Assembly: GCF_020622345.1 (NCBI RefSeq)
Contig: NZ_JACNMO010000035.1
Location: 1-42,792 of the forward strand
Source of the DNA: Roseobacter weihaiensis
Lineage (GTDB): Bacteria; Pseudomonadota; Alphaproteobacteria; Rhodobacterales; Rhodobacteraceae
Direction of reading: 5' to 3'
DNA: 42,792 nt
Shown here: positions 958 to 21,819 of the stretch, piece by piece
Position numbering within the stretch: the first letter of the stretch is position 1
How the letters are laid out: each line of letters opens with the position of its first letter
Made by a program: the position numbers and the translations under genes
The notes under the pieces: model-generated
Seen by the model: only the letters and a program-made list of their open reading frames with translations
Told to the model about the DNA's origin: nothing
Databases searched by the model: none

Positions 958-1311
958 TCATCGATCTTTTTCGGGTGCGTCACCTTCCAGTTGCGCGCGA
1001 AAACGTGACGCGACGGCGCGCCTTACATCGCGCGGTTGATCGTCGAGGGCCGCGAGTAGCATGCGCAAATCACGCCGGGTTTGATGCAACCGGTCGATGA
1101 GGGACAAGACCATGTGAACCGCGTCGGAAGTGAGCGCCATCTCCTGCCGCAAATCACAAAGCAGACGCAGGCGCGCGACATCAATGTCATCGAACTTAGG
1201 GCCACTTTCGCTCATCGCGGGCCGCACCAAGCCCTCGCGCACCCAAACCCGCAAGTCACGACGGGTGAGCCTGCGTATCTCCGACAGGACCTTCTCTTCG
1301 GTATAGATCAT
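958..1311 (-). CDS. cbpM: CbpM, chaperone modulator (MerR-like)
   Basis: This 117-residue protein matches the CbpM family, which binds the J-domain of CbpA and blocks its use of DnaK. The N-terminal part (residues 1-60) has the MerR-like pattern, including LTRRDLRVWVREGLVRP and FDDIDVARLRLLCDL; the rest is helical and ends in a charged tail. Its ATG overlaps the cbpA stop codon by four bases (ATGA), so the two are translationally coupled, as in other bacteria carrying this pair. It is the penultimate gene of the leftward stress operon. A transcription-factor role is less likely given the small size and the partner gene. Confidence 0.85.
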   Translation of the reverse strand: MIYTEEKVLSEIRRLTRRDLRVWVREGLVRPAMSESGPKFDDIDVARLRLLCDLRQEMALTSDAVHMVLSLIDRLHQTRRDLRMLLAALDDQPRDVRRAVASRFRAQLEGDAPEKDR

Positions 1312-2255
1312 GTCGCCCTCCGCAACTCAGTTCGCGGGTCGAATCCGGCCGTCTCGCGCCAGCGCTTCGCCAAATTCTCCATGTCCTTGTCGATCTTCTT
1401 CGGCAGCACAATCTTCAGCCGCAAGATCTGATCGCCCGCCTTTCCCTTGACCGGTTTGATGCCTTTGCCACCGAGGCGCAGGCGCTGGCCGGAGGACGCC
1501 CCTTTCGGGATGGTGAGCGAGACGGGTCCCCACACCGTGGGCACATCGACAGATCCGCCGAGCACCGCCTCGTCGAACGTGATCGGTAGCTCCAACTCGA
1601 TGTTGTCGCCCGCACGGCCAAACACAGCATGCGGTCTGACCGAGACAGTGACCAGCGCGTCACCCGACGCGCCCTCACCGTACCCCGGTGCACCCTTGCC
1701 GCGCAGTCGTAGCGTCTGGCCATCCTTCAGGCCCGGCGGGATGCTGATTTCAATGTTGTTGCCATCGGGCATGGTCACGCGACGCTTTGTACCGCGCACG
1801 GCATCGAGGAAATCGACATCGAGATGGTAACGCAGATCCTGACCGCGCGCGTGGACCTCCCTGTGGAACCCACTCTGGCGTGGACCGCCGACGCGGCCGC
1901 CGAAAAACTGTGAAAAAATATCGCCCAAATCGTCGTCGCCGACACCGCCGCCGAAGCCAGGGCCGGGGTCGTAGCGGCGGCCAGCATCCTGTCCGGCATA
2001 ATGATGATAGTACTGGCGTTCAGGGCGTTCCTGGCCGCTGGCGTCAATCTCGCCTGCATCAAAGCGACGGCGCTTCTCGGGATCGCTCAGCAGATCGTAA
2101 GCCGCCGAGACGGCCTTGAAGCGTTCCTGCTTTGCCGCGTCATCCGGGTGAAGGTCGGGATGCAACTCCTTCGCCAGCTTGCGATACGCCTTCTTGATCT
2201 CGGCCTGGGGTGCGCTCTTTGGAACACCTAGGACTTTGTATGGGTCGATACTCAT
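1308..2255 (-). CDS. cbpA: CbpA, DnaJ-class co-chaperone
   Basis: This 315-residue Hsp40 stimulates DnaK ATPase and delivers unfolded clients. The J-domain occupies residues 1-70, with the diagnostic HPD at 32-34 (KELHPDLHPDD). A Gly/Phe-rich linker follows (about 85-125, YDPGPGFGGGVGDDDLGDIFSQFFGG), then the two beta-barrel C-terminal client-binding domains (about 140-300). The Cys-rich zinc finger of DnaJ proper is absent, which marks it as the CbpA class. The Shine-Dalgarno is weak. It sits 130 bases downstream of degP on the same strand and overlaps cbpM by four bases. As an island copy it would work with host DnaK, since no dnaK is present here. Confidence 0.92.
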   Translation of the reverse strand: MSIDPYKVLGVPKSAPQAEIKKAYRKLAKELHPDLHPDDAAKQERFKAVSAAYDLLSDPEKRRRFDAGEIDASGQERPERQYYHHYAGQDAGRRYDPGPGFGGGVGDDDLGDIFSQFFGGRVGGPRQSGFHREVHARGQDLRYHLDVDFLDAVRGTKRRVTMPDGNNIEISIPPGLKDGQTLRLRGKGAPGYGEGASGDALVTVSVRPHAVFGRAGDNIELELPITFDEAVLGGSVDVPTVWGPVSLTIPKGASSGQRLRLGGKGIKPVKGKAGDQILRLKIVLPKKIDKDMENLAKRWRETAGFDPRTELRRAT

Positions 2256-2385
2256 CTTGTTTCGCTTTCAATCCCCTGGCCATGCCGCAAAACAGGCGAG
2301 GCGGGTGATTGCCAAAAGGCCAGTGGCATTACCCGAGATGCAATGTCAGACACCCGGGCGCGCCAAGGATATCCGGATCGACGGG

Positions 2386-3765
2386 TCATGATCTGAGCAC
2401 AATCAACAGGGTCCGACCATCACGCCAGACGGTCAACGCCACCGCGTTTGGCGCGTCCTCGAGAGCGCGGTCGATGTCGCGGATCGACCCTACCGTTTGA
2501 CGGTTGACCGCCGTGATGACGTCCCCCGCCTCCAGACCGGCCTGCGCGGCACGGCTGCCTGGCGCGATCTCCGAAACGACAACGCCGTCTGCGTCGCCCC
2601 AAGCCGGATGGTTCCGATCGAGCGGGGAAAGGCGAACACCCGCCAACGCATCAATTGCGCCACGATCGCGCTCTGCCAAGCGGGGGCCCCCGCCACCTGC
2701 GAGTGCGACCTGCGTCACGAGGCGCTCACCATCTCGAACATAGGCGATTTCGACCTCATCGCCCGGCCTGCGCAGGCCGATTCTCTGACGCAAGTCGGCG
2801 GATCCGTCGACACCCTCGCCGTCAACCGCGACAATGACGTCTCCGGCGGCAAGACCCGCGTCGTCCGCAGGGGTGCCCGGCTCGACCGAGCTGACGATGG
2901 CGCCTGTCTCGGCGTCGACACCAAGCGCTTCAGCCAGGTCTGGCGTCAGGTCCTGGATCATCACGCCAAGCCGACCGCGCTGGACTTCGCCGAACTCGAC
3001 CAGCTGATCCATAACGGACAGCGCCATGTTGATGGGCACCGCAAAACCGATCCCGACGTTGCCGCCGCCATTGGGCGCAATGATCGCCGTGTTAATACCG
3101 ACGAGATTACCATCAAGAGTGATCAGCGCACCGCCTGAGTTACCCGGGTTGATTGAGGCATCGGTCTGGATGAAGTCTTCATAGCCTTCGGGATTGATCC
3201 CCGACCGTCCAAGCGCCGAGACGATGCCGCTTGTCACGGTCTGGCCGAGACCGAATGGATTACCGATGGCGACAACAAAGTCACCCACGAGCAGGTTTTC
3301 AGAGTTGCCGAGCGGCACCTCCGTCAGGTCTTCCGCCTCGATCCTTAATACAGCGATATCCGTGGCCGGATCACGGCCGATCAACTCGGCTTCGATGGTC
3401 CGGTTGTCGCGCAGTGTGACGCGGATCTCATCTCCGTTTTCGATGACGTGATTGTTCGTCAGGATGTATCCCTCACCAGCATCGACGATCACGCCGGATC
3501 CAGCGCTCATCTGCCGCTGCGGTGGCAGTTGCTCGAGCGGCGGCAAGAAGGGCTGGAAGAACGGATCGCGAAAAAGCGGCGTCATCTGGGTGGGTCGCTC
3601 AGAGACAACCGCGATGTTGACGACAGCGTCGTCCACGGCGTCGATCAGCGGCGCGATGGTCGGGATGCCGCGTTCATCAGGCTCAACCGCTGCGATTTGG
3701 GCAACCGCCGGCCCCGCGACAAAACCAATCGAAAAGACGAATACAATAGCCAGACGGCTCAGCAT
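2386..3765 (-). CDS. degP: DegP/HtrA-family periplasmic serine protease with two PDZ domains
   Basis: The protein has 459 residues. Residues 1-22 form a signal peptide ending in AVA. The S1C protease domain (about 40-255) shows the full triad: His106 in TNNHVI, Asp136 in TDIAVL and Ser210 in GNSGGA. Two PDZ domains follow (about 265-350 and 375-455). It is therefore an exported protease-chaperone that degrades or holds misfolded envelope proteins. AAGGAG lies just before the ATG. It lies between an sHSP gene and cbpA in the leftward operon. It is a two-PDZ enzyme, unlike the one-PDZ protease at 10,482, so the island carries two architectures. Confidence 0.93.
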   Translation of the reverse strand: MLSRLAIVFVFSIGFVAGPAVAQIAAVEPDERGIPTIAPLIDAVDDAVVNIAVVSERPTQMTPLFRDPFFQPFLPPLEQLPPQRQMSAGSGVIVDAGEGYILTNNHVIENGDEIRVTLRDNRTIEAELIGRDPATDIAVLRIEAEDLTEVPLGNSENLLVGDFVVAIGNPFGLGQTVTSGIVSALGRSGINPEGYEDFIQTDASINPGNSGGALITLDGNLVGINTAIIAPNGGGNVGIGFAVPINMALSVMDQLVEFGEVQRGRLGVMIQDLTPDLAEALGVDAETGAIVSSVEPGTPADDAGLAAGDVIVAVDGEGVDGSADLRQRIGLRRPGDEVEIAYVRDGERLVTQVALAGGGGPRLAERDRGAIDALAGVRLSPLDRNHPAWGDADGVVVSEIAPGSRAAQAGLEAGDVITAVNRQTVGSIRDIDRALEDAPNAVALTVWRDGRTLLIVLRS

Positions 3766-3826
3766 GGTTCATCTCCTTTGCAAAGGCGCCGCCGGGATCG
3801 CGCACCGGCGGCGCATCAGGACGGGA

Positions 3827-4318
3827 TCAGGCGGCCTGCACCTCGATGCGTTTCACCTTGGCCTGAGCTTCCGGGGTTTGCGGTAGCTTGATGGTCAGCA
3901 CGCCGTTCCTGAAGCTGGCCTCGGCCTTTTCGCCATCGACGCCCGGAGGCAACGGGATCGTGCGGTAGATCGCGCCGTAGCTGCGCTCGGAGAGGTAGTA
4001 GCCCTTCTTCTCTTCCTGCCGCTCGACCTTCTTTTCGCCCTTCACGGTCAGCATGTCGTCGGTGACCGACACCTCGATGTCCGACATGTCCATGCCGGGC
4101 AGCTCGATCGAAACCTCGACATGGTCCTTAGTCTCGACCACGTCAGACTTGGCATCTCCACCGCCCCAGGGCCAGTCGAGGTCGCCGGCGCGGGTCCAGA
4201 AGCTTTCGAAGACCCGGTTCATTTCGCGCTGCAAACCGGCGATGGGGCTCTGATCATCGGCCTTCGGTTCGGGCGCATGGTCCTTGCGAACCCAGGGGAT
4301 CAAATCTTTGATCTGCAT
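3827..4318 (-). CDS. Small heat-shock protein (Hsp20/alpha-crystallin), copy 1
   Basis: This 163-residue holdase binds unfolding proteins without ATP. The alpha-crystallin domain spans about residues 55-155, beginning SDVVETKDHVEVSIELPG and ending with the FRNGVLTIKLP motif. The N-terminal arm contains FESFWTRAG and WPWGGG, aromatic segments of the sort used for oligomerisation and client contact. It is the third of three tandem, clearly different sHSP genes and lies 61 bases upstream of degP. AAGGAG precedes the start. A short TCTCC/GGAGA pairing could involve the ribosome site but is too weak to call. Confidence 0.93.
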   Translation of the reverse strand: MQIKDLIPWVRKDHAPEPKADDQSPIAGLQREMNRVFESFWTRAGDLDWPWGGGDAKSDVVETKDHVEVSIELPGMDMSDIEVSVTDDMLTVKGEKKVERQEEKKGYYLSERSYGAIYRTIPLPPGVDGEKAEASFRNGVLTIKLPQTPEAQAKVKRIEVQAA

Positions 4319-4355
4319 GTTTTTTCTCCTTCATATCTGCGCGGAGAGCCCCGGA

Positions 4356-4763
4356 TCAGGACCCTGTCACGGCGATCTTCTTGGGCTGGGCCTCGGCGGC
4401 CCGAGGCAGCGTTACGGTCAGCACGCCATGCGAAACCGACGCTCCGATCTTGTCCGGGTCGAAATCGTCGGACAGCGTGAAGGCGCGTTCGTAATCGCCT
4501 TCCCCATATTCGGCGTATGCCAGTTGCAGCTTCTCGGGATGCGTGCCCTGGATCTTGCCCCGGACTGTCAGCACGCGCTTTTCAAGCGTGACGTCGACGT
4601 CTTCGGCAGAAACGCCGGGCATTTCGAGCATCAGCGTCACGCCCTCATCCGTTTCCACGATATCTGTGAGCGGTTGATAGATGCGCCCGCCTGCCATGGT
4701 TTCGGGGCCCTGGGCCGGGGTTTTCTCAACCGTCTCAGGCGTGTGGGTCATTTGGTCCGTCAT
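4356..4763 (-). CDS. Small heat-shock protein (Hsp20/alpha-crystallin), copy 2
   Basis: This 135-residue member has a short polar N-terminal arm (MTDQMTHTPETVEKTP) and an alpha-crystallin domain from about residue 28 to 130, with LMLEMPGVSAEDVDVTLE and the closing SHGVLTVTLPR. It lacks the aromatic N-terminal segments of the neighbouring copies, so it probably differs in oligomer size or client range and may co-assemble with them. It starts 15 bases after the upstream sHSP gene and ends 37 bases before the next, within one operon. The divergence among the three copies argues against recent tandem duplication. Confidence 0.92.
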   Translation of the reverse strand: MTDQMTHTPETVEKTPAQGPETMAGGRIYQPLTDIVETDEGVTLMLEMPGVSAEDVDVTLEKRVLTVRGKIQGTHPEKLQLAYAEYGEGDYERAFTLSDDFDPDKIGASVSHGVLTVTLPRAAEAQPKKIAVTGS

Positions 4764-4778
4764 GTGCGTCTTCTCCTC

Positions 4779-5207
4779 TCAAGCGGCTTTGATCTCGATC
4801 TTCCGTGGCTTGTCCTCGTCCGGACGACCCACGACGATGCGCAGGACACCTGCCGTCATCCGTGCTTCGACCTTGTCGTCGGACGCGGCAAAGGGCAGCC
4901 GGATCGCGCGGGTGAATTTTCCGAAACGGCGTTCATTGCGATGCCATCGCGCGGCGTCCGGCACGTCCGGTGCCTTGCGCTCGCCCGAGATCGTCAGAAC
5001 GTTGTCCTTGACGGAAATATCAATGTCGGACGGGTCGATACCGGGGAGTTCCGCCGTCACGGCAACGGCATCGTCGCCTTGCCAGACATTCACCGCCGGA
5101 AAGACGGATTGATCAGAGTTCGTTGGGATAAACCGGTTCACGTCGCGCAGCATGGAACGCATCATCCCAAAGGGGTCGCTGCGGCGCGTGTAGGTGGGAT
5201 AGTACAT
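4779..5207 (-). CDS. Small heat-shock protein (Hsp20/alpha-crystallin), copy 3, first gene of operon
   Basis: This is a 142-residue sHSP. I chose the ATG at 5207 because GAGGAGG lies six bases upstream; an in-frame ATG at 5285 has no ribosome site and would sit inside the leader hairpin. The N-terminus (MYYPTYTRRSDPFGMMRSMLRDVNRFIP) resembles the class-A sHSPs of alphaproteobacteria. The alpha-crystallin domain covers about 37-140, with VTAELPGIDPSDIDISVKD and AGVLRIVVGRP; the usual GVLxIxxP is slightly altered. It heads the leftward operon and has a long structured leader with a sigma-32-like promoter, so it is the most likely point of heat control. Confidence 0.92.
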   Translation of the reverse strand: MYYPTYTRRSDPFGMMRSMLRDVNRFIPTNSDQSVFPAVNVWQGDDAVAVTAELPGIDPSDIDISVKDNVLTISGERKAPDVPDAARWHRNERRFGKFTRAIRLPFAASDDKVEARMTAGVLRIVVGRPDEDKPRKIEIKAA

Positions 5208-5286
5208 GTCTTGCCTCCTCATTTTGCCAATCCAAACGTGCGACAAATGTCGCATGTATTCGAGGCGCCCGAGGAGGTCGGACATG
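5205..5286 (-). promoter_or_regulatory. Candidate RNA thermometer sequestering the sHSP ribosome site and AUG
   Basis: In the minus-strand transcript, CATGTC (5286-5281) can pair with GACATG (5210-5205, containing the start codon), and CCTCCTC (5277-5271) with the Shine-Dalgarno GAGGAGG (5220-5214). The two helices are separated by a symmetric 3x3 internal loop (CGA/CAA). The enclosed segment holds a further perfect hairpin, TGCGACA-N2-TGTCGCA (5254-5239). Pairing of the ribosome site and the start codon in an sHSP leader is how ROSE-type and fourU-type thermometers work. Seen: the complementarity. Inferred: temperature-dependent melting. Confidence 0.65.
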
Positions 5287-5296
5287 TCTAAAGGTT

Positions 5297-5312
5297 CGCC
5301 GATTAAGCGGCG
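5297..5312 (-). promoter_or_regulatory. Upstream hairpin in the sHSP leader
   Basis: A CGCCG-N6-CGGCG inverted repeat lies in the leader just upstream of the candidate thermometer helix. ROSE-type leaders commonly have one or more stable upstream hairpins, so this may be part of the same structured leader. By itself it is a short and unremarkable stem. Confidence 0.35.
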
Positions 5313-5428
5313 TTCGATGTCATTCGCGTTTCCGTTCCGCTCCCGAACTGGCGAGTGGCCGGTGGTCCGCTGTCAGAGCCGAACCTTTATGCGTATCCGT
5401 GAAACCCCATCTGGGCGTCTCACAGCTG

Positions 5429-5457
5429 ATAAGGTGAGGTCAATCCCGGTTTTCAAG
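5429..5457 (-). promoter_or_regulatory. Sigma-32-like promoter for the sHSP-degP-cbpAM operon
   Basis: On the minus strand, CTTGAA (5457-5452) is followed after 17 bases by CCTTAT (5434-5429). This fits the RpoH pattern (CTTGAAA and a C-rich, T-ending -10 box), and the same kind of promoter precedes rpoH at 23,345. Transcription would begin near 5,422, giving a leader of about 215 bases before the first sHSP start. Confidence 0.6.
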
Positions 5458-5477
5458 ACGGGATCGTGGAAATTTTG

Positions 5478-5880
5478 TCAACGATAGACACCCCAAGGAC
5501 CAAATCTCGGTGCATCAATGCGGACAACAACAGGGACGCGAACGGGACCGCGTTCGGCCGAAGACAACGCCTTGCCGGTCAGTTCCTGCAATCGACGGAC
5601 CCTCTCTTCGGTGGGCGGATGCGTGCGCAACAGCGACGGGTCGGGAATCCGGCGACCGGGCAGGATCATCTCTTCCCAAAATCGCCCTGTTCGACGCTCT
5701 AACTTCAGTAGAGCGGAAGCTAAACCTGCGGGGTCGCCGGTCAATTCCGCGCCGCCTCGATCTGCATCGTATTCGCGCGTACGCGACAGTGCGAGCCGAA
5801 GAAGGGCCATGATGGTCGGCGACACGACAAGCAAGATGGGAACAATCCACGGCACATGCGCCACTCCGGCAAGGATATGC
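5478..5880 (-). pseudogene. M48 (HtpX-like) metalloprotease, C-terminal remnant
   Basis: The frame reads as the C-terminal half of an M48 peptidase: a membrane-type segment (VPWIVPILLVVSPTIMALLR), the third zinc-ligand motif TREYDADRGG, and the RTHPPTEERVRRL stretch shared with HtpX. The N-terminal half with the catalytic HExxH and first membrane helices is missing. Upstream of about 5,880 the sequence stops resembling the family and runs directly into a truncated MFS gene on the other strand. It cannot be an active protease as it stands. It is distinct from the intact HtpX at 7,669. It lies upstream of the sHSP promoter on the same strand. Confidence 0.75.
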
Positions 5881-5884
5881 GGCG

Positions 5885-6817
5885 ATGATCGTGGTTGTCG
5901 AAAGCTGGCTGAATGCGTCAACGCCGAGCAGGTCGCGCGGACGCGTCCTTGCAACCTATGGCGCGTTGATGATGGGGGCCTGGGCCGCGAGCCAGCCGTT
6001 GATCGGGCTCGCCGATCCTGAAGGCTTCGTGCTCTTCGCGATCATCTCAATTCTGGTGTCTCTGTCTCTCGTCCCATTGACGTTATCTCGGGGTGCAGTC
6101 TCTCCGGACATTCAGGCGAGCCGAAGTTCAATATCAAGGCTTTTTGCGATCTCACCTATTGCGTTGGTCGGCGGCTTTCTGATCGGTGTCTGGACGAGCG
6201 CGTTCTGGGGGCTGGGGCCAACCTACGGGCAGTTGTCCGGCCTTTCCGACACTGAGGTCGCGACCTTCATGTCCGTTGTCATGATAGGCGCGCTTGTTGC
6301 GCAGTGGCCGGTGGGCTGGCTCTCGGATTTGATCGACCGCCGCGTGGTTATCGGGCTCGTGACCCTCTTGGCAGGTTGCTGCGCTGTTACACTCACAAAA
6401 ATCAGTACAGAAGACTGGGAGGTCTTTTTGTTGACCTCCGCACTCTATGGCGCCGCCAGCATCTCGATTTACTCCGTTTGCCTCGCCCATATCAACGACC
6501 GGATCGAGGCTGATGAAGTTGTCGCAGCAGCCAGCGCTCTGTTGCTCTTCTACGCGATCGGGTCGGCGCTTGGTCCGATTACGATCGGTATCCTCATCGA
6601 AGCGTTTGGCCCCGCGACCTTTTTTGCGGCTGCGGCTGCGCTTCAGTTCGGTTTCGCCGCCTATGTCATTTGGCGCCTGCTGACCGACAGCCGCCAGCCA
6701 GAGGGCGACAAGCAGGGCTTCGTTGCAATGCCCGCTAATTCCACAAGTCACATGGCGACAGAGCTGCATAAGCACGGGACCGCCGACGACAAAAAATTTG
6801 CCAGTCAGACCTCTTGA
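5885..6817 (+). pseudogene. MFS transporter (YcaD-like), N-terminally truncated
   Basis: The frame gives about 310 residues matching the middle and C-terminal part of a major-facilitator permease. It opens at VVESWLNASTPSRSRGRVL, a motif normally found about 90-100 residues into the protein, and continues through eight or so membrane helices, including PVGWLSDLIDRRVVIG. The first helices are absent and there is no ribosome site at the first ATG (5,885). Its 5' end coincides with the broken end of the M48 gene, so one rearrangement probably removed the start of both. A translated remnant is conceivable, but transport by a protein missing its first helices is unlikely. Confidence 0.75.
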
Positions 6818-6893
6818 AATCGTTTTTGTCCCAACAAATCTCTGCAGCGCGTGGGAGGATGGTCCTCCCATAACTCAAAAAGGAGACACGCAA

Positions 6894-7139
6894 ATGCGTC
6901 GTTTAGCAGTAGGTGCAACCGTGGCCGCTCTGTTGGCGGCACCCGCTTTCGCTCTTTCGGTGTCTGATGTCGACACCGACGGCGACAGCCTCATCTCTTT
7001 CGCCGAAATGGCGGAGCTTTACCCCGATCTGACCGAAGAGACCTTTGCCGAGGTCGACACCGGCGGTGATGAGTTTGTCGACGAGGACGAACTGGCAGCC
7101 GCACTCGAGGCTGGTCTGATCGAAGAACCCGCTGAGTAA
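6894..7139 (+). CDS. Small secreted EF-hand protein
   Basis: This is an 81-residue protein. AAAGGAGA precedes the ATG at 6894. Residues 1-20 are a signal peptide (MRRLAVGATVAALLAAPAFA). The mature part has one canonical calcium-binding EF loop (DVDTDGDSLISFAEM) and a second, degenerate one (EVDTGGDEFVDEDEL), so it should be an acidic periplasmic or exported Ca-binding protein. It is followed 44 bases downstream by a small membrane protein in the same orientation, then a terminator, so the two form a short transcription unit. Its role in a chaperone island is unknown; calcium sensing or buffering in the envelope is one guess. Confidence 0.8.
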   Translation: MRRLAVGATVAALLAAPAFALSVSDVDTDGDSLISFAEMAELYPDLTEETFAEVDTGGDEFVDEDELAAALEAGLIEEPAE

Positions 7140-7183
7140 CCGGCTTTGTACAAACGTCAATCTTGATCAGGAGGACACTGCAC

Positions 7184-7357
7184 ATGGCTATGACTGAAAA
7201 ACTCCCAAAGCAGATCAACTGGAAGATCTGGGGCGCAGTTGCCGTCGCCGCGATCATCATTCTTGGTGGCGCGGGATACTATTTCGACTGGTTCGGCTCC
7301 GGCGCGACCGAAGCCGCGGCTCCAGCCGTTGAAGAGGCGGCACCGGCCAGCGAATAA
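7184..7357 (+). CDS. Small single-pass membrane protein
   Basis: This 57-residue protein has a strong CAGGAGGA ribosome site ahead of the ATG at 7184. A short basic cytoplasmic start (MAMTEKLPKQINWKI) precedes one hydrophobic helix (about residues 21-39), then a soluble tail of Ala, Pro and Glu (ATEAAAPAVEEAAPASE) that should face the periplasm. I recognise no family. It follows the EF-hand gene closely and ends just before a good terminator, so the pair probably act together. The acidic tail could bind cations or a partner protein, but nothing in the sequence proves it. Confidence 0.75.
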   Translation: MAMTEKLPKQINWKIWGAVAVAAIIILGGAGYYFDWFGSGATEAAAPAVEEAAPASE

Positions 7358-7377
7358 ACGCCATTCCGCCGATGTCG

Positions 7378-7413
7378 AGAGCCCGGCGGACAAAACCGTC
7401 GGGCTCTTTTGTT
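7378..7413 (+). terminator. Rho-independent terminator after the EF-hand/membrane protein pair
   Basis: AGAGCCCG and CGGGCTCT form the base of a 12-base-pair stem (one G/T mismatch) with an ACAAAA loop, directly followed by TTTTGTTT. It begins about 20 bases after the stop codon of the small membrane protein. Confidence 0.85.
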
Positions 7414-7610
7414 TCATCTCGGTTATGGCGGTAGTGCCCAGACCGATTTCTTTTGAGTTTTTCTTCCGATAGGTACGTTGCCTTTGGCGCGCCCCGTAAT
7501 AATGCAAGCTGAACAATCTTCCCATTTATTCCATCGGTTCGATCTCATGTCGCCAACGTTTCACTGAAATTGGAAGCAATTGAAGAAACTCATTGCGGTT
7601 TGGACGCTTA

Positions 7611-7638
7611 TTGTCGCTGATTTCGGCCACACCTATAT
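7611..7638 (+). promoter_or_regulatory. Possible heat-shock promoter for htpX
   Basis: TTGTCG (7611-7616) and CTATAT (7633-7638) are separated by 16 bases, within the range for alphaproteobacterial RpoH promoters, and lie about 30 bases before the htpX start. The rest of the 7,414-7,668 gap shows nothing else I can name. The match is partial. Confidence 0.35.
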
Positions 7639-7668
7639 GCGGGTCATAATTACTCGGAGGGTAAACGG

Positions 7669-8547
7669 ATGGTTCGCACCTTCATGCTTATGGCAGGCAT
7701 GACCGCGTTTGTGGGGGTCGCCGGGCTTATGCTGGGCGGTGAGGCGGGGCTTGTCATTGCGCTTGCCATCGCGGCGGGCATGAACTTCTTCGCCTATTGG
7801 AACTCCGACAAGGCCGTTCTGCGGATGCATGGCGCACGGCCTGTGGATCAAAGGTCCGCGCCGGAACTGTGGGAGATGACGGCAAGCATGGCGCGGCGGT
7901 CCGGAATGCCCATGCCGGCGCTCTACATCATCGAGACCGAGCAACCCAACGCTTTTGCCACCGGGCGAAACCCCGAAAACGCGGCCGTTGCTGTCACACG
8001 CGGACTGCTCCGCAACATGAGCCGAGAGGAGGTTGCGGGCGTCGTGGCCCATGAGCTGGCGCATATCAAGAACCGCGACACGCTGACCATGACGATCACC
8101 GCCTCGCTGGCGGGCGCAGTGTCGCTGCTCGCCAACTTCGCCATTTTCTTCGGCGGCGGGCGAGACCGCCCGCTAGGGATGATCGGCACAATCGCCATGA
8201 TGATCCTTGCCCCTCTTGCGGCTGCGATGGTGCAAATGGCGATCAGCCGGGTGCGCGAGTATGAAGCCGATGCGGAGGGTGCCGCGATCTGCGGGAACCC
8301 TGAGTGGCTGGCCTCTGCACTGAACAAACTGGGGGTCCTTTCGGGCCGGATCGACAACATCGCAGCCGAAAGAAACCCGGCCACCGCGCATATGTTCATC
8401 GTCAACCCGTTGCATATGCAGGCTGTGGACAGCCTTTTTGCCACGCACCCGCCCATAGAAAAGCGCATCGCGGAACTGCGGAAACTCAGCGGTGCATCCA
8501 TGCGTCGTGCACCGCGCGCACAAGCAGGCGCGGGTCCGTGGAGCTGA
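7669..8547 (+). CDS. htpX: HtpX, membrane zinc metalloprotease
   Basis: This 292-residue M48B protease cleaves misfolded inner-membrane proteins. It has two N-terminal membrane helices (about 4-44), the zinc site HELAH at 128-132, two more hydrophobic segments (about 145-162 and 170-190), and the third-ligand motif REYEAD at 196-201. The C-terminus has the [16 protein letters not shown] signature. CGGAGGG lies before the ATG. It is intact and full length, unlike the M48 remnant at 5,478. It begins a plus-strand run with htpG and the one-PDZ protease (gaps of 69 and 17 bases), suggesting an operon for membrane, cytosolic and periplasmic quality control. Confidence 0.95.
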
Positions 8548-8616
8548 ACGACGCCTATTGAAGGCCCCGCCCGCGATCCATAAATCAGCGCCGCGTATGA
8601 AACTGGAGGAGAAAAC

Positions 8617-10464
8617 ATGACCGAAGTTCTTGAGAAAGAGACCTTTTCGTTCCAGACCGAGGTGGGGCAGCTTCTGGAGATTGTCGCGGGGTCGCTTTAC
8701 TCCAACCGCGAGGTGTTCCTGCGCGAGCTTGTCTCGAACGCATCTGACGCCTGCGACAAGCTCCGCTACGCGGCGCTGACGGATGCAAGCCTCGCCCCCG
8801 CCGACGGGTTCGCGATCACGCTCGCTGCCGATAAGAAAACCCTTTCAATTTCAGACAACGGCATCGGCATGAACCATGCCGATTTGCTCGACACTCTGGG
8901 CACAATCGCCAAATCCGGCACCGGCGCGTTCATCGAAGCGTTGAAGGCCGACGAAAAGGATGCCCCCGGCCTTATCGGTCAGTTTGGCGTGGGCTTCTAT
9001 TCGGCGTTCATGGTTGCGTCCAAGGTTGACGTGCTGACAAGCAAGGCCGGTGAGGACGAGGCCTGGCTCTGGTCCTCTGATGGCAAGGGCTCTTTCACCA
9101 TCGAGCCTGCGACCCGCGATGCCGCTGGCACCACGGTGACGCTTCACCTCAAAAAAGATGCCAAGGAATTCGCCGACACCGCGCGCATCCGCCAGATCAT
9201 CACGACCTATTCGGAACATATCAGCTTTCCGGTGAAGCTCGGGGACGAGACCCTCAACGCGGCGCAAGCGCTTTGGACGAAAGCGCCAAAGGACGTAACA
9301 CAGGACCAGTACATCGAGTTCTACAAGCATACGTCGCATGCCTTCGACACCCCATGGCACACCATTCACAACAAGGTGGAAGGGTCGCTCAACCACACCA
9401 GCCTTCTCTTCGTGCCATCCGTGCAGCCGTTCGACCTGTTCGACCCGGAACGCAAAAGCCATGTGAAGCTTTACGTGAACCGCGTGTTCATCTCGGAGAC
9501 GACGAAAGACCTGATCCCGGCCTATCTGCGGTTCCTGCGGGGCGTGGTGGACAGCCAGGACCTGTCGCTGAATGTCTCGCGTGAGATGCTGCAAACGGAC
9601 CCGAAGCTTGCCCGGATCAAGGGCCAAGTCACCAAAAAAGTTCTGAGTGAACTCAAGAAGAAAGCGACAAAGGAACCGGACGACTACGCCACCTTCTGGG
9701 GCAACTTCGGCGCCGTCCTGAAAGAGGGCCTTGTCGAAGACCCGTCATTACGCGACCGCATACTCGCAGTCTGTCGTTTTGCGTCGACCGGACCCGAGGC
9801 GCTCACCAGCCTGTCGGCTTACGTGGAACGGATGAAAGAGGGCCAGGATGCGATTTTCTACATCGCGGGCGAAGACGCGGGCAAACTGGCGCAGTCCCCG
9901 CATCTCGAAGGCTTCAAGGCGAAGGGGGTCGAAGTATTGCTGCTGTCAGACCACGTGGACGAGTTCTGGCTCCAGCACATCCATGAATTCGAGGGCAAAC
10001 CGTTCAAATCCATAACCCGAGGTGCTGCGGATCTGGATGCGATCAAGGCCGACGCGGACCAAGCCGACAAAGACGACGACGCGGCTGACCTGTCCAAACT
10101 CATCGCGGCGATCAAGGCAGAACTGGGCGAGACGGTCAAAGACGTCCGTCCGTCCAAGCGCCTGACCGACAGCCCTGTTTGCCTGATTGCGGATGAAGGC
10201 GACATCGACGTGAACCTGGAAAGGCTGCTGAAGCGCCACGGACAATTGCTGGAAGGCATGCCAAGGGTCCTCGAATTGAACCCAAATCACGCGCTCATCT
10301 CAAAACTGGCCGAACGCGCCGAGAGCGATCCCGACGAGTTGCTCAAAGACGCAGCGCACCTTCTGCTCGATCAGGCCCGCATCGTTGAAGGCGAAGCCTC
10401 GGTCGATCCCGCCGGCTTCGCACGTCGTTTGGGGTCCGTAATGTCCCGCGCCTTTGGGGCCTGA
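8617..10464 (+). CDS. htpG: HtpG, bacterial Hsp90
   Basis: This 615-residue ATP-dependent chaperone remodels late folding intermediates with DnaK. The GHKL ATPase domain (about 1-215) shows the Hsp90 motifs LVSNASDACDKLR, ISDNGIGM and GQFGVGFYSAFM. The middle domain contains NRVFISETTKDLIPAYLRFLRGVVDS and LNVSREMLQ, and the C-terminal dimerisation domain ends near RLGSVMSRAFGA. Length matches the family. GGAGGAG precedes the ATG. It lies 69 bases after htpX and 17 bases before a periplasmic protease gene. The island supplies no DnaK, so HtpG would cooperate with the host DnaK/DnaJ system. Confidence 0.96.
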   Translation: MTEVLEKETFSFQTEVGQLLEIVAGSLYSNREVFLRELVSNASDACDKLRYAALTDASLAPADGFAITLAADKKTLSISDNGIGMNHADLLDTLGTIAKSGTGAFIEALKADEKDAPGLIGQFGVGFYSAFMVASKVDVLTSKAGEDEAWLWSSDGKGSFTIEPATRDAAGTTVTLHLKKDAKEFADTARIRQIITTYSEHISFPVKLGDETLNAAQALWTKAPKDVTQDQYIEFYKHTSHAFDTPWHTIHNKVEGSLNHTSLLFVPSVQPFDLFDPERKSHVKLYVNRVFISETTKDLIPAYLRFLRGVVDSQDLSLNVSREMLQTDPKLARIKGQVTKKVLSELKKKATKEPDDYATFWGNFGAVLKEGLVEDPSLRDRILAVCRFASTGPEALTSLSAYVERMKEGQDAIFYIAGEDAGKLAQSPHLEGFKAKGVEVLLLSDHVDEFWLQHIHEFEGKPFKSITRGAADLDAIKADADQADKDDDAADLSKLIAAIKAELGETVKDVRPSKRLTDSPVCLIADEGDIDVNLERLLKRHGQLLEGMPRVLELNPNHALISKLAERAESDPDELLKDAAHLLLDQARIVEGEASVDPAGFARRLGSVMSRAFGA

Positions 10465-10481
10465 CTGGAGGAAGCGCGTCG

Positions 10482-11516
10482 ATGCTGAAGCTGTTTGGAA
10501 CACTTGCGGTTGCGCTCGTGTTCGCAGCGTCGGCGCTCGCCCAAGACCTGACGGCGCCCGAAGAGCGGCTGATCTCGCTCTTTGAGGCGTCGCGGTCTTC
10601 GGTCGTGTCGATCACGACGGGGCAAAGGCGGGTGGACCCCTGGCTGCGTCGGGCCGAAATCGTGCCAAGTGGCTCCGGCTCCGGCTTCTTCTGGGGGGAA
10701 GACGGCCACATCGTGACGAACGCGCATGTCATCCGAGGGGCCGTGCGGGCGGACATCCACATGTCGGACGGACGCGTCTTGCCTGCACGACTTGTCGGAA
10801 CCGCACCGCAATTCGATCTCGCCGTGCTTCGGGTCGATCTCGATGGCACATCTGTGCAGCCCCTGGAAAACGGCAACAGTGCCGATCTCCGGGTCGGTCA
10901 AAGCGTGTTGGCGATCGGGAACCCGTTCGGGCTCGACTGGACGCTGACGACGGGGATCGTGTCGGCGCTCGATCGCGAGATCCCGATCGGGAACGGTGTG
11001 ATCGAGGGGCTGATCCAGACCGATGCGGCGATCAATCCCGGGAATTCCGGTGGGCCGCTTCTCGACAGTTCAGGCCGGTTGATCGGTGTGAATACTGCGA
11101 TCTTCAGCCCGTCCGGCGCAAGTTCGGGGATTGGATTTGCCGTGCCAGTGGATCTTGTGAAACGGGTTGTGCCGCAACTGATCGCGACCGGTGTGTATCG
11201 TCCGCCCGTGCTTGGTATCCGGTTTGACCCTCGCATTGACGCGTTGGCGCGCCGCAATGGCATCGAAGGGGCCGTCGTGTTGTCCGTCGATCCTGGTGGC
11301 CCCGCAGATGTGGCGGGGCTTATGCCAGCCGAGCGCAGCCCGCATGGCGGCATCATGCCGGGAGATGTCATTCAACGCGTGGATGGCCGGCACATCGCAT
11401 CGGGCACTGACCTTGGCGCGATCCTAGACGACTATGCATCCGGCGACAGGATCACACTGACCGTTTGGCGAGACGGTGAAACGCGTGAAGTATCCGCGCA
11501 GTTGGCCGCCCCGTAG
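10482..11516 (+). CDS. HtrA/DegS-like serine protease with one PDZ domain
   Basis: This 344-residue S1C protease starts with a signal peptide (residues 1-20, ending SALAQ). The triad is complete: His82 in TNAHVI, Asp112 in FDLAVL and Ser189 in GNSGGPL. A single PDZ domain covers about 245-340. One PDZ makes it closer to DegS or MamE-type enzymes than to DegP, although the cleavable-looking signal suggests a soluble periplasmic enzyme rather than a membrane-anchored one. It lies 17 bases after htpG with the same orientation, so it is likely cotranscribed with htpX-htpG. No sigma-E/RseA partner genes are present here. Confidence 0.9.
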   Translation: MLKLFGTLAVALVFAASALAQDLTAPEERLISLFEASRSSVVSITTGQRRVDPWLRRAEIVPSGSGSGFFWGEDGHIVTNAHVIRGAVRADIHMSDGRVLPARLVGTAPQFDLAVLRVDLDGTSVQPLENGNSADLRVGQSVLAIGNPFGLDWTLTTGIVSALDREIPIGNGVIEGLIQTDAAINPGNSGGPLLDSSGRLIGVNTAIFSPSGASSGIGFAVPVDLVKRVVPQLIATGVYRPPVLGIRFDPRIDALARRNGIEGAVVLSVDPGGPADVAGLMPAERSPHGGIMPGDVIQRVDGRHIASGTDLGAILDDYASGDRITLTVWRDGETREVSAQLAAP

Positions 11517-11567
11517 GCCACCATTTGAGCCGGCAGGCACCTTTCCTTCGACCTCATCCCTGCGGCT

Positions 11568-11584
11568 TGACACGTGTGACACGT
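11568..11584 (+). repeat. Tandem TGACACGT direct repeat
   Basis: TGACACGT occurs twice with a nine-base period in the gap between the one-PDZ protease gene and groES; the junction creates an ACACGTGT palindrome. It could be an operator, but nothing ties it to a known regulator. The rest of the gap up to 11,695 shows nothing I can name. Confidence 0.35.
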
Positions 11585-11695
11585 AAGAACGCGGCACTGT
11601 ATATCGAGGCAGTTTGACTACGCGCTGACATGGCATAATTTCGCCAAATCTGCACAACACACTGATTTTGGTACAATAAAATTTTGCCCAAGCAT

Positions 11696-11724
11696 CTTGA
11701 AATCGAAAAGCCTCCTTACGATCT
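11696..11724 (+). promoter_or_regulatory. Probable groESL promoter (sigma-32-like)
   Basis: CTTGAAA begins at 11,696 and a T-rich -10-like stretch (CCTTACGATCT) lies at 11,714-11,724. The -35 box matches RpoH promoters well; the -10 box is only partial whichever spacing is chosen. Transcription would start just before the CIRCE element, the usual arrangement. Confidence 0.5.
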
Positions 11725-11732
11725 ACGCAGCG

Positions 11733-11759
11733 TTGGCACTCCGTCGACGAGAGTGCCAA
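11733..11759 (+). promoter_or_regulatory. CIRCE operator (HrcA binding site)
   Basis: TTGGCACTC-N9-GAGTGCCAA is a perfect inverted repeat differing from the CIRCE consensus (TTAGCACTC-N9-GAGTGCTAA) only by one symmetric base per arm. It lies 34 bases upstream of the groES start. HrcA repressor should bind it. No hrcA gene is in the window, so a host HrcA must act here. Confidence 0.92.
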
Positions 11760-11792
11760 AAGCATTGACACTCTAACGGAGGAGCCTTGTAC

Positions 11793-12104
11793 ATGACATT
11801 TACCCCTCTGCATGACCGCGTTCTGGTGCGCCGCGTTAACAGCGACGAAAAGACCGCCGGCGGGTTGATTATCCCCGATACTGCCAAGGAAAAGCCCGGT
11901 CGCGGTGAAGTCATCGCGGTTGGCCCTGGCGCGCGTGACGAGCATGGCAAACACATCGATATAGCCGTGAAAGCAGGCGACCACATCTTGTTCGGCAAGT
12001 GGTCAGGCACCGAGATTACCATCGATGGTGAGGAGATGCTGATCATGAAAGAGAGCGACATCCTCGGCATCATTGAAGACACAGAAATCGCGAAAGCCGC
12101 GTAA
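11793..12104 (+). CDS. groES: GroES co-chaperonin
   Basis: This 103-residue lid of the GroEL cage has the GroES signature at its start ([33 protein letters not shown]), including the mobile loop, and the usual [13 protein letters not shown] and C-terminal ESDILGIIE strand. I chose ATG 11793, eight bases after GGAGGAG; an in-frame TTG six bases earlier is unlikely. It is 30 bases ahead of groEL. CIRCE and a CTTGAAA promoter upstream indicate repression by HrcA and activation by RpoH. It is slightly longer than typical GroES (about 95-97) and is probably an extra copy beside a core groESL elsewhere. Confidence 0.95.
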
Positions 12105-13766
<1,662 letters not shown>

Positions 13767-20395: not shown

Positions 20396-21649
20396 TCAGG
20401 CCTCCAGCCGCAAGACGTTGTCGGTAGCCACGCCTGTGACGATCTCGCGGACCTTGTCAGCCCACGCCTCCAGCGCCGCGCGCTTCTCCTCCTCGAAGTC
20501 ATAGTGGCCGTAGGTTTGCACCAGCACATCGTCGTCGGTGTGATTGACCACCCGCTTGATGATGTCGCTGGGGATGCGAAGGCGCTGCATGCCGGTGTAC
20601 AGCGTACGGCGCAGATCGTGGGCACCCCAGTTCTCGCATTCCATGGCCGGGCGCACACGCACCCGCAGCGCCTTCACGAGACCCTGATACGGTGTCTGGC
20701 CGTCGGTGGTGAAGACGTAGTCGCCACGTCGTTCAATACCCTCCAGCACCTCCAGCGCCATGGGAGACAGCGGCACGGTATGCTCGCGCCTGTTCTTGGT
20801 GCGGGTCGCCGGGATCGTCCAGACGGCAGCATCCATGTCCACCTCACCCCAGCGCATGGCGGCGATCTCGCCGGGGTTGTTGGCCTTGGTGCCGGGGCGC
20901 TGGCCCGTCAGCAGACCGAAGCGCAGAGCGGCTCCGTACGGGCTGTCCACGCCCTCTGTGACTTTCCACAGCTTCGCGATCTCCTCGTCGCTCAGGACGC
21001 GGGTCTTGGGGGCATTCTTCGGGAAGGCCTTCACACCCAGCACCGGGTTGCGGTCGGTCATGTCGAGATCGACCGCAAGGTTGAACATGGTGCAAAGGAC
21101 GGCACGCTCGCGGTTGAACGCTGTGGGGTCGTCGGCCCGCATCTTCTTGCGCTTCATGAGGGCGGCCTTGGTGATGTCGCCCAGTGGCGTGTCAGCACCG
21201 AAGTGCGGGATAAGGGCGTTCTCGATCTGGCGGCGGTCCTCGCCGATGGACTTCTTGTGCCGCTTCTCGAACAGGTAGGTATCGGCGAGGTTGCGCAGGG
21301 TGTTGGTCGCGGTCTTTTGCTCCTCGGCCTCAACGGCTGCCTGAGCCTCCAGCTCAGCCCGCATAGCGGCGTCACGGTCAAAACCGCGCTGGCCTTCCAG
21401 CTTGCGCTCTGTGGCCTCCTGCCGGGCTGCCTCCAGCGTCATCTCACCTGTCGCGGCCAGCCGCACCTCCTTCTGCTTCAGGCCGTCGGCGGTGCGTAGT
21501 CGGTAGTTCGTGTAGTACGCCTTCTTGCCGGTCGGGGCGATGCGCACGTAGAGGCTGGTCACCTGCGTGTCACGAAGGATGTGGGCCTTCGCCTCGGGCT
21601 CCGCGTTCTCGATGGCGCGGACGGTCAGCTTGAGCTTCTGATTGGGCAT
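20396..21649 (-). CDS. int: Tyrosine integrase, island type (DUF4102 N-terminal domain)
   Basis: This 417-residue P4-like integrase starts at the ATG at 21649 (MPNQKLKLTVRAIENAEP); a longer frame upstream lacks support. Residues 1-100 form the arm-binding DUF4102 domain (RIAPTGKKAYYTNYRL), followed by a SAM-like core-binding domain and a catalytic domain with the first Arg in LLTGQRPG, HDLRRT, VVNHTDDD and a final YGHYDF with the Tyr. The segment after TGQRPG carries extra residues (TKANNP) before GEIAAMRW. It faces left, about 170 bases from a tRNA-His-like 3' half, as expected for the integrase of an island inserted in a tRNA gene. Confidence 0.93.
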   Translation of the reverse strand: MPNQKLKLTVRAIENAEPEAKAHILRDTQVTSLYVRIAPTGKKAYYTNYRLRTADGLKQKEVRLAATGEMTLEAARQEATERKLEGQRGFDRDAAMRAELEAQAAVEAEEQKTATNTLRNLADTYLFEKRHKKSIGEDRRQIENALIPHFGADTPLGDITKAALMKRKKMRADDPTAFNRERAVLCTMFNLAVDLDMTDRNPVLGVKAFPKNAPKTRVLSDEEIAKLWKVTEGVDSPYGAALRFGLLTGQRPGTKANNPGEIAAMRWGEVDMDAAVWTIPATRTKNRREHTVPLSPMALEVLEGIERRGDYVFTTDGQTPYQGLVKALRVRVRPAMECENWGAHDLRRTLYTGMQRLRIPSDIIKRVVNHTDDDVLVQTYGHYDFEEEKRAALEAWADKVREIVTGVATDNVLRLEA

Positions 21650-21819
21650 TTTCGAGTCCTCGTTTTGGTGTGCCGCCGTGGGCGCAGTGCCCCGTGTCGC
21701 CAGAGTTCTTTCCAACACTTTTCCAACACTTTGTGACCGGTGTATTTCGAAGTGAAGCGGTCGTTCCCTTTGGAAATAAGGATTTCACCGCCCCCTTTGC
21801 AAGCCCACAGGTGGCAAAA

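Follow-up and report, generated by a model that had tools for sequence, protein, structure and literature searches.

A conserved leader RNA ahead of an HSP20 operon in Roseobacter weihaiensis, with a putative decoy ribosome site and two competing folds

In the window (the whole stretch of DNA analysed, 42,792 nucleotides from Roseobacter weihaiensis), the first of three HSP20 genes in a row is preceded by a conserved leader RNA of approximately 214 nucleotides, which is probably new. Our calculations over homologous leaders show that two pairings of this RNA exist, that they are mutually exclusive, and that both are conserved: in one, the Shine-Dalgarno (SD) sequence and the start codon are paired, while in the other, which coevolves, the same strand pairs with a 5' "decoy" domain. 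Judged from sequences and predicted folds, a bistable translational switch is the best-supported mechanism for this leader, at slightly better than even probability. To the fuller proposal, that it represents a new conserved RNA family of HSP20-operon leaders which start with a decoy ribosome-binding site and would act as a heat-opening, switch-type thermosensor or as a co-transcriptional timer, we give a shade under an even chance. The heat-shock thermometers ROSE, fourU, and hsp17 are described as melting in the literature consulted here. If our proposal is true, a two-state decoy leader would be another route to a sharp or timed heat response from very stable helices. The leader is a candidate RNA family with a clear anatomy from promoter to start codon, and its two states are directly testable.

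Genomic context

The first HSP20 gene matches PF00011 with an E-value of 1.1e-20, confirming the heat-shock assignment made in a preliminary description of this DNA. The longest reading frame starts further upstream, at 5285 (168 aa, minus strand), and is open; a start there was rejected, since the homologues align from the ATG at 5207 and the SD sequence fits 5207. The ATG at 5285 is, in addition, not kept (AAG in L032, from Lutimaribacter pacificus, and CTG in L033) and is not preceded by an SD sequence discernible by eye. Small upstream reading frames, located after the P3 hairpin or at a conserved CATG, were likewise discarded, as their start codons vary among leaders (by eye). Since the arms of the hairpin described below are inverted repeats, a mirrored GAGGAGG...ATG occurs on the plus strand (5206-5487) within an open frame; it is probably spurious.

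The region 958-13766 constitutes a heat-shock cluster with a MerR-like regulator and DnaJ-type, DegP-type, three HSP20, HtpX-like, Hsp90-like, second DegP-type, and GroES/GroEL-like genes, some assigned by domain match and others by eye from the reading frames. The order HSP20-HSP20-HSP20-DnaJ-MerR found on a plasmid of Paracoccus sp. SCSIO 75233 is similar. The promoter is immediately preceded by the C-terminal part of an HtpX-like M48 peptidase (5478-5954, minus strand; positions 119-185 of the 186 of the Pfam profile), and a longer HtpX-like reading frame is seen by eye at 7669-8547. An integrase-like reading frame at 20396-21718 (minus strand, by eye) is a possible genomic-island marker.

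Homologous leaders and parts of the element

Among 80 homologous loci, 78 have usable upstream DNA (all except L065 and L070), and the leader is present in 31 of these, 27 of them found by motif together with L105, L106, L109, and L110. Most of the remaining loci are, by eye, of a mobile-island type with another leader. A set of 33 leaders was composed of the window, 25 of the 31, and seven leaders from later searches, with the near-copies L038, L039, L040, L044, L046, and L101 left out. Alignments A1 (20 leaders, L038 included) and A2 (22 leaders) consist of distinct rows, several of which are close relatives; both omit the short types L106, L109, and L110, and A1 also omits L105, L107, and L108. 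Swap tests employed 25 of the 33 leaders, without the close copies L032, L037, L042, L043, L110, and L130, the different leader L131, and L128, whose start codon is mis-assigned; these 25 together with L032 and L042 gave the 27 leaders of the ensemble and energy-gap calculations. All shuffle and permutation tests ignore kinship among the leaders. The parts of the element, in the order of transcription, are as follows.

5429-5457, minus strand: RpoH (sigma-32)-like promoter CTTGAA-N17-CCTTAT, its end 7 nt ahead of the element (from spacing)
5401-5421, minus strand: P1, local hairpin GAGAC-G-CCC/GGG-GTTTC, whose strands also occur in LR1 and LR2 (GGGG as SD mimic)
5386-5400, minus strand: linker ACGGATACGCATAAA, partner of the anti-AUG segment of the switch strand in LR3 (helix 3, paired in 81.7% of cells)
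5364-5385, minus strand: P2, hairpin GGTTCG-G-CT/AG-CGGACC, whose 5' strand has CGAACC as an alternative partner (LR4)
5332-5362, minus strand: P3, local hairpin between P2 and P4 (RNAalifold on A2)
5297-5312, minus strand: P4, hairpin CGCCG/CGGCG (A1 helix 1, 93.5% of cells paired)
5262-5298, minus strand: switch strand CGAACCTTT-AGACATGTCC-GACCTCCTC-GGGCGCCTC, predicted partner of SD/AUG (shut) or of the 5' domain (open), from the fold, alignments, and swap tests
5239-5254, minus strand: apical hairpin of the shut state, TGCGACATTTGTCGCA (TGCGACA/TGTCGCA; from the fold; A1 helix 4, 76.0% paired)
5214-5220, minus strand: SD sequence GAGGAGG (from sequence and fold)
5205-5207, minus strand: start codon AUG of the HSP20 gene, A at 5207 (from sequence; homologues begin here)
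4779-5207, minus strand: coding sequence of the first of the three HSP20 genes (ORF list and Pfam match)

The form CTTGAA-N17-CTTTAT, which the promoter resembles, is one that we take to be typical of alphaproteobacterial RpoH promoters. The distance from CTTG to P1 is 36 bp in 27 of the 33 leaders, 35-38 bp in five more, and 40 bp in L131. Owing to this near-constant spacing, the position of the promoter makes it most likely that the mRNA begins near P1.

The local hairpins of the 5' region were each assessed by comparison. P1 is paired in 94.8% of cells, a value reached by 4 of 2000 shuffles, its loop length having been chosen by pairing; the motif by which P1 was located fixes part of the hairpin, bulged G included, and this G is therefore no independent evidence. 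P2 occurs in 12 distinct forms, and its pairing of 94.8% is inflated because its strands were found by motif. Compensatory changes nevertheless support P2, with eight double-changed cells, where shuffles average 2.1 and reach 6 at most (0/5000). In P3, seven of the eight predicted pairs (columns 65-73 with 85-96) display at least one double change.

Pairing over the ribosome site

In the shut state, the upstream arm (5288-5271, minus strand) pairs with both the SD sequence (5220-5214) and the AUG (5207-5205). The anti-SD CCTCCTC (5277-5271) lies opposite GAGGAGG, the anti-AUG GACATGTC (5288-5281) lies opposite GACATGT (5210-5204), which contains the AUG, and the two helices are separated by a 3x3 internal loop. 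This hairpin, with its apical TGCGACA/TGTCGCA stem, is the one drawn in the preliminary description, and it is indeed present on the minus strand. The region 5200-5290 folds at -40.8 kcal/mol, compared with a mean of -21.47 (sd 3.2) for 200 dinucleotide shuffles, none of which was as low (z -6.04); the claim that SD and AUG are both sequestered is upheld by this fold.

Both arms are kept across the 20 leaders of A1: 81.4% of cells are paired in the AUG helix and 91.3% in the SD helix, and for the complete shut structure the figure is 85.3%, falling to at most 49.7% when slid. Hence, of the two signs that the preliminary description had sought in homologous arms, conservation was found, while covariation over the shut structure is weak: the five observed measures were reached by 22, 106, 45, 95, and 48 of 500 shuffles, and a slid version has more double changes than the real register (both in A1). 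Weak covariation is to be expected here, because SD and AUG hardly vary. The swap test of the SD arm gave a modest outcome, with 134 of 5000 permutations reaching the leaders' own pairing.

The hairpin is, however, one half of a larger element. Conservation spans the whole leader of ~214 nt, well past the stretch first described, with a mean column identity of 70% in the 5' domain (A3, 22 rows) and 66% in the hairpin region (A1, 20 rows).

Pairing with the 5' domain

The same upstream arm is also complementary to the conserved 5' domain (5421-5376), which resembles a ribosome site. In the window, the partners are GAG.CGCCC and GGGCG.CTC, GGGGT and the anti-SD, CGGATA.G and C.ATGTCCG, and AAAGGTTCG and CGAACCTTT. 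As the SD side aligns poorly in A2, the RNAalifold result on that alignment was distrusted and the decoy helix was tested separately. Aligned without structure (A2, 22 distinct rows), its 28 pairs are formed in 86.6% of cells, compared with 35.0-49.3% when slid. The helix scores 0.205 for covariation, compared with 0.172 (sd 0.008) for shuffles (0/500) and at most 0.123 for slid versions, and 20 cells are double-changed, against 8.6 (sd 2.5) in shuffles (0/500). The observed numbers of double-changed pairs and of further pair types were reached by 31 and 10 of 500 shuffles, respectively. One control was unfavourable: sliding the decoy helix by +1 leaves 19 double-changed cells and eight double-changed pairs, where the real register has 20 and seven.

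Coevolution of the decoy pairing was also seen in an alignment-free swap test of 25 leaders, in which the own duplex energy was -1221, compared with -1109 (sd 21) for swapped partners, and none of 5000 permutations was as good. The controls were flat, both for the reversed strand, which reflects composition (z -0.2), and for the P3 region (z -0.7), and the effect was retained among 10 diverged leaders (z -3.3, 7/5000). When the domain was swapped by blocks, the 5' strand of P2 was the only clear block (0/5000); the 5' strand of P1, the linker, and the loop block gave 225, 353, and 1622 of 5000. Furthermore, the 45-nt segment that pairs best with the 5' domain sits over the arm in all 25 leaders. 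It starts 83-107 nt ahead of the AUG, or 55-56 nt ahead of it in three short types (L106, L109, and L127). In L153, L155 (close to L127), and L159, which were found later, the best partner segment is likewise over the arm; own pairing beats 17 and 21 of 25 others in L153, and 23 and 19 of 25 in L159.

The signal is uneven between leaders. Within five short types, own pairing is not in every case the best, and the decoy z is weak in L108 (-0.1), L048 (-0.2), L109 (-1.0), and L045 (-1.3), with the own pairing of L048 better than just 7 and 3 of 24 swaps. LR1 contains an A.C mismatch in the window's group. The switch strand matches ACATG of the start region perfectly, whereas against ATACG of the decoy it has a U.G and a C.A mismatch in most rows, as would be expected if this strand must serve both partners.

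Balance of the two states

We propose that pairing of the switch strand (5298-5262), which is antisense to SD and AUG, would shut HSP20 translation, and that the first ~45 nt of the leader would imitate the ribosome site and compete for this strand, so that its capture by the decoy would release SD and AUG. The transcript would begin at the decoy, and the decoy-paired state would be the open one in vivo. Heat may then move the switch to the open state, either at equilibrium or via fresh transcripts whose decoy pairs before the SD is made.

In full leaders at 37 C (n=27), on average 0.37 of the 5'-domain bases and 0.42 of the SD/AUG bases are paired with the switch strand. In transcripts cut before the SD, at 30 C, the 5'-domain share is 0.61 and exceeds 0.5 in 21 of 27 leaders; shares of 0.5 or below were obtained for the window (0.42), L045, L091, L108, L109, and L127. 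The cut transcript of the window has a partial decoy helix and retains local P1. When folds without decoy pairing were compared with folds in which SD to AUG are unpaired, the window leader was predicted to be more stable shut than open, by 11.0 kcal/mol at 37 C and 8.3 kcal/mol at 50 C. Leaders leaning to the shut state are the window, L123, L108, and L109, and those leaning to the open state are L047, L124, L105, and L067.

Computation over the homologues, therefore, yields two mutually exclusive folds, one of which frees the ribosome site. The preliminary description had regarded an alternative fold leaving the site open at low temperature as speaking against a thermometer. Such a fold was found in homologues and, as a conserved competitor of the shut fold, it points to a switch.

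A two-state leader with a conserved 5' domain could also serve as a sensor of a protein or ligand, the domain binding a factor (for instance, the HSP20 protein itself) that selects the state. This reading draws on analogy, since E. coli IbpA represses itself via its 5'UTR according to passages of PMC10474464. We consider it unlikely for the present leader, where pairing to the switch strand accounts for part of the 5' conservation.

Response to temperature

The energy model keeps the SD of the window leader paired from 10 to 70 C (folded in four contexts). Opening the stretch from SD to AUG is predicted to cost 19.5 kcal/mol at 30 C, 17.5 at 37 C, and 16.1 at 42 C, while the E. coli ibpA thermometer requires 5.8 kcal/mol at 37 C and 5.1 at 42 C in the same calculation. 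Among 77 strong-SD reading frames taken from 280 kb of this genome, the median cost at 30 C is 7.5 and the maximum 14.5; the cost ranges from 7.7 to 19.6 over the 33 leaders, 12 of which lie above every background gene, in a comparison where the leaders were 3'-padded with five A, the background genes were unpadded, and one of the leaders (L128) has a mis-assigned start codon. The costs of L045, L047, and L124 (7.7-8.5) are near the background median.

These values bear on the reading of the preliminary description, a one-hairpin zipper thermometer in which heat melts the SD/AUG hairpin and the 5' domain merely stabilises the mRNA or aids folding. Such a thermometer would agree with the sequestered SD and AUG, the conserved arms, the heat-shock gene, and the RpoH-like promoter, and cyanobacterial hsp17 has a comparable two-stem plan in the portion of PMC4477652 consulted. 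It is, however, quite unlikely for the window, whose site remains shut to 70 C in the model and needs 16.1 kcal/mol for opening at 42 C, against 5.1 for E. coli ibpA, and it would leave the coevolving 5' domain unexplained. Of the folding behaviour between 20 and 50 C that the preliminary description had envisaged, the predicted closure of SD and AUG at low temperature was recovered; opening in the physiological heat-shock range was not, and the model gives no support to a simply melting helix.

With regard to the two-state switch, the energy gap between the shut and open states shifts toward open from 25 to 50 C in 24 of 27 leaders. Part of this shift is trivial, given that fewer pairs are formed in the open state. 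From 20 to 55 C, the fraction of SD/AUG bases that pair with the switch strand falls clearly in L073, L061, L048, L091, L035, L042, and L102, rises in L034, L045, L036, and L059, and is near flat in most others, including the window. Heat is a plausible trigger in view of the gene and its promoter, and we do not claim flipping by temperature alone.

A DNA palindrome (operator) or a coding sequence (the N-terminus of a longer protein from 5285) is very improbable, for although the frame from 5285 is open and the two arms form an inverted repeat at the DNA level, that ATG is neither conserved nor, by eye, preceded by an SD, and pairing is maintained while the sequence changes.

Comparison with known RNA regulators

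The preliminary description had associated the hairpin with ROSE thermometers. The defining feature of ROSE is a U(U/C)GCU motif in the 3' hairpin that pairs imperfectly with the SD, as set out in sections of PMC3669281. Membership was rejected, since this motif is absent, the anti-SD CCTCCTC is fully paired, and there is no Rfam match: no family of Rfam 15 matches 5150-5500 up to E 10, and ROSE at its gathering cutoff was found in none of 40 other loci, some of which have a different leader. Similarities to ROSE (RF00435) do exist, as both are leaders of HSP20-type genes with helper hairpins ahead of the SD hairpin, and the window leader, like ROSE, belongs to a small heat-shock gene in the alpha/gamma-proteobacteria. 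P1 has the same bulge-then-CC/GG plan as ROSE hairpin 1 in our own reading of the consensus. The differences are the length of the present leader (~214 nt), its all Watson-Crick SD helix, and the burial of the AUG too. The locus L131 (1499-1588) carries the ROSE-like leader of another HSP20 gene. The first two hairpins of this leader resemble P1 and P2, and a distant link to the ROSE helper hairpins is therefore possible; the L131 leader matches model R1 (see below) at E 8.9e-6 and Rfam ROSE with 21.7 bits, under the cutoff of 45.

A fourU element is excluded by the sequence, as the SD is not paired with four uridines. Translational riboswitches consist of a 5' domain and a sequestor and anti-sequestor that compete for the SD. 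The HSP20 leader shares with them the 5' domain and the competing pairings over the SD, and differs in that no ligand or pocket is known for it.

Two mutually exclusive mRNA folds, one of which hides the ribosome site, are described for lambda cIII and E. coli cspA, both translated at lower temperature, in parts of PMC4166951 and PMC9450479. Our leader is likened to them by its predicted folds; in contrast to these cases, it belongs to a heat-shock gene, has its switch within the leader, and contains a decoy of the ribosome site. In cyanobacterial hsp17, the start codon is in one stem and the SD in a second, with an internal loop between them and an apparent melting at 46 C (excerpts of PMC4477652), the thermometer being a 46-nt single hairpin (excerpts of PMC4166951). 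The AUG and SD stems flanking an internal loop are common to both RNAs, whereas hsp17 is a single short hairpin without a decoy domain. Among the titles and abstract starts listed from the open-access literature, which leaves most subscription literature outside, none describes this leader.

Distribution

Model R1 (the 5' domain) has matches in 10 of 394 genomes of the family and 2 of 385 of the class (own genome counted), under strict filters that weak members may escape. Model R2 (the full element) matches in 14 of 390 genomes of the order, own genome counted, and three of these matches look like chance: by eye, L157 and L158 lie in or beside ATP-synthase-like genes, and L160 lies beside a terminator-like repeat. 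In its own genome, R1 matches once, compared with seven HSP20 matches. The examined matches of R1 and R2 are otherwise upstream of HSP20-type genes, with the exceptions of L129 and L153. L129, in genome G257, is a second but truncated copy of the 5' domain, with no recognised HSP20 gene behind it, and in L153 the leader is kept ahead of a degenerate HSP20 reading frame.

The mobile-island leaders (Brucella, Paracoccus, Methylobacterium, and others) were folded and kept out of the counts. In most of L049-L100, from about -105 to the ATG, the anti-SD CTCCGAACCG seems by eye able to pair with either CGGTTCGGGG or the genuine SD GGAGG, and a similar decoy principle may operate in these leaders.
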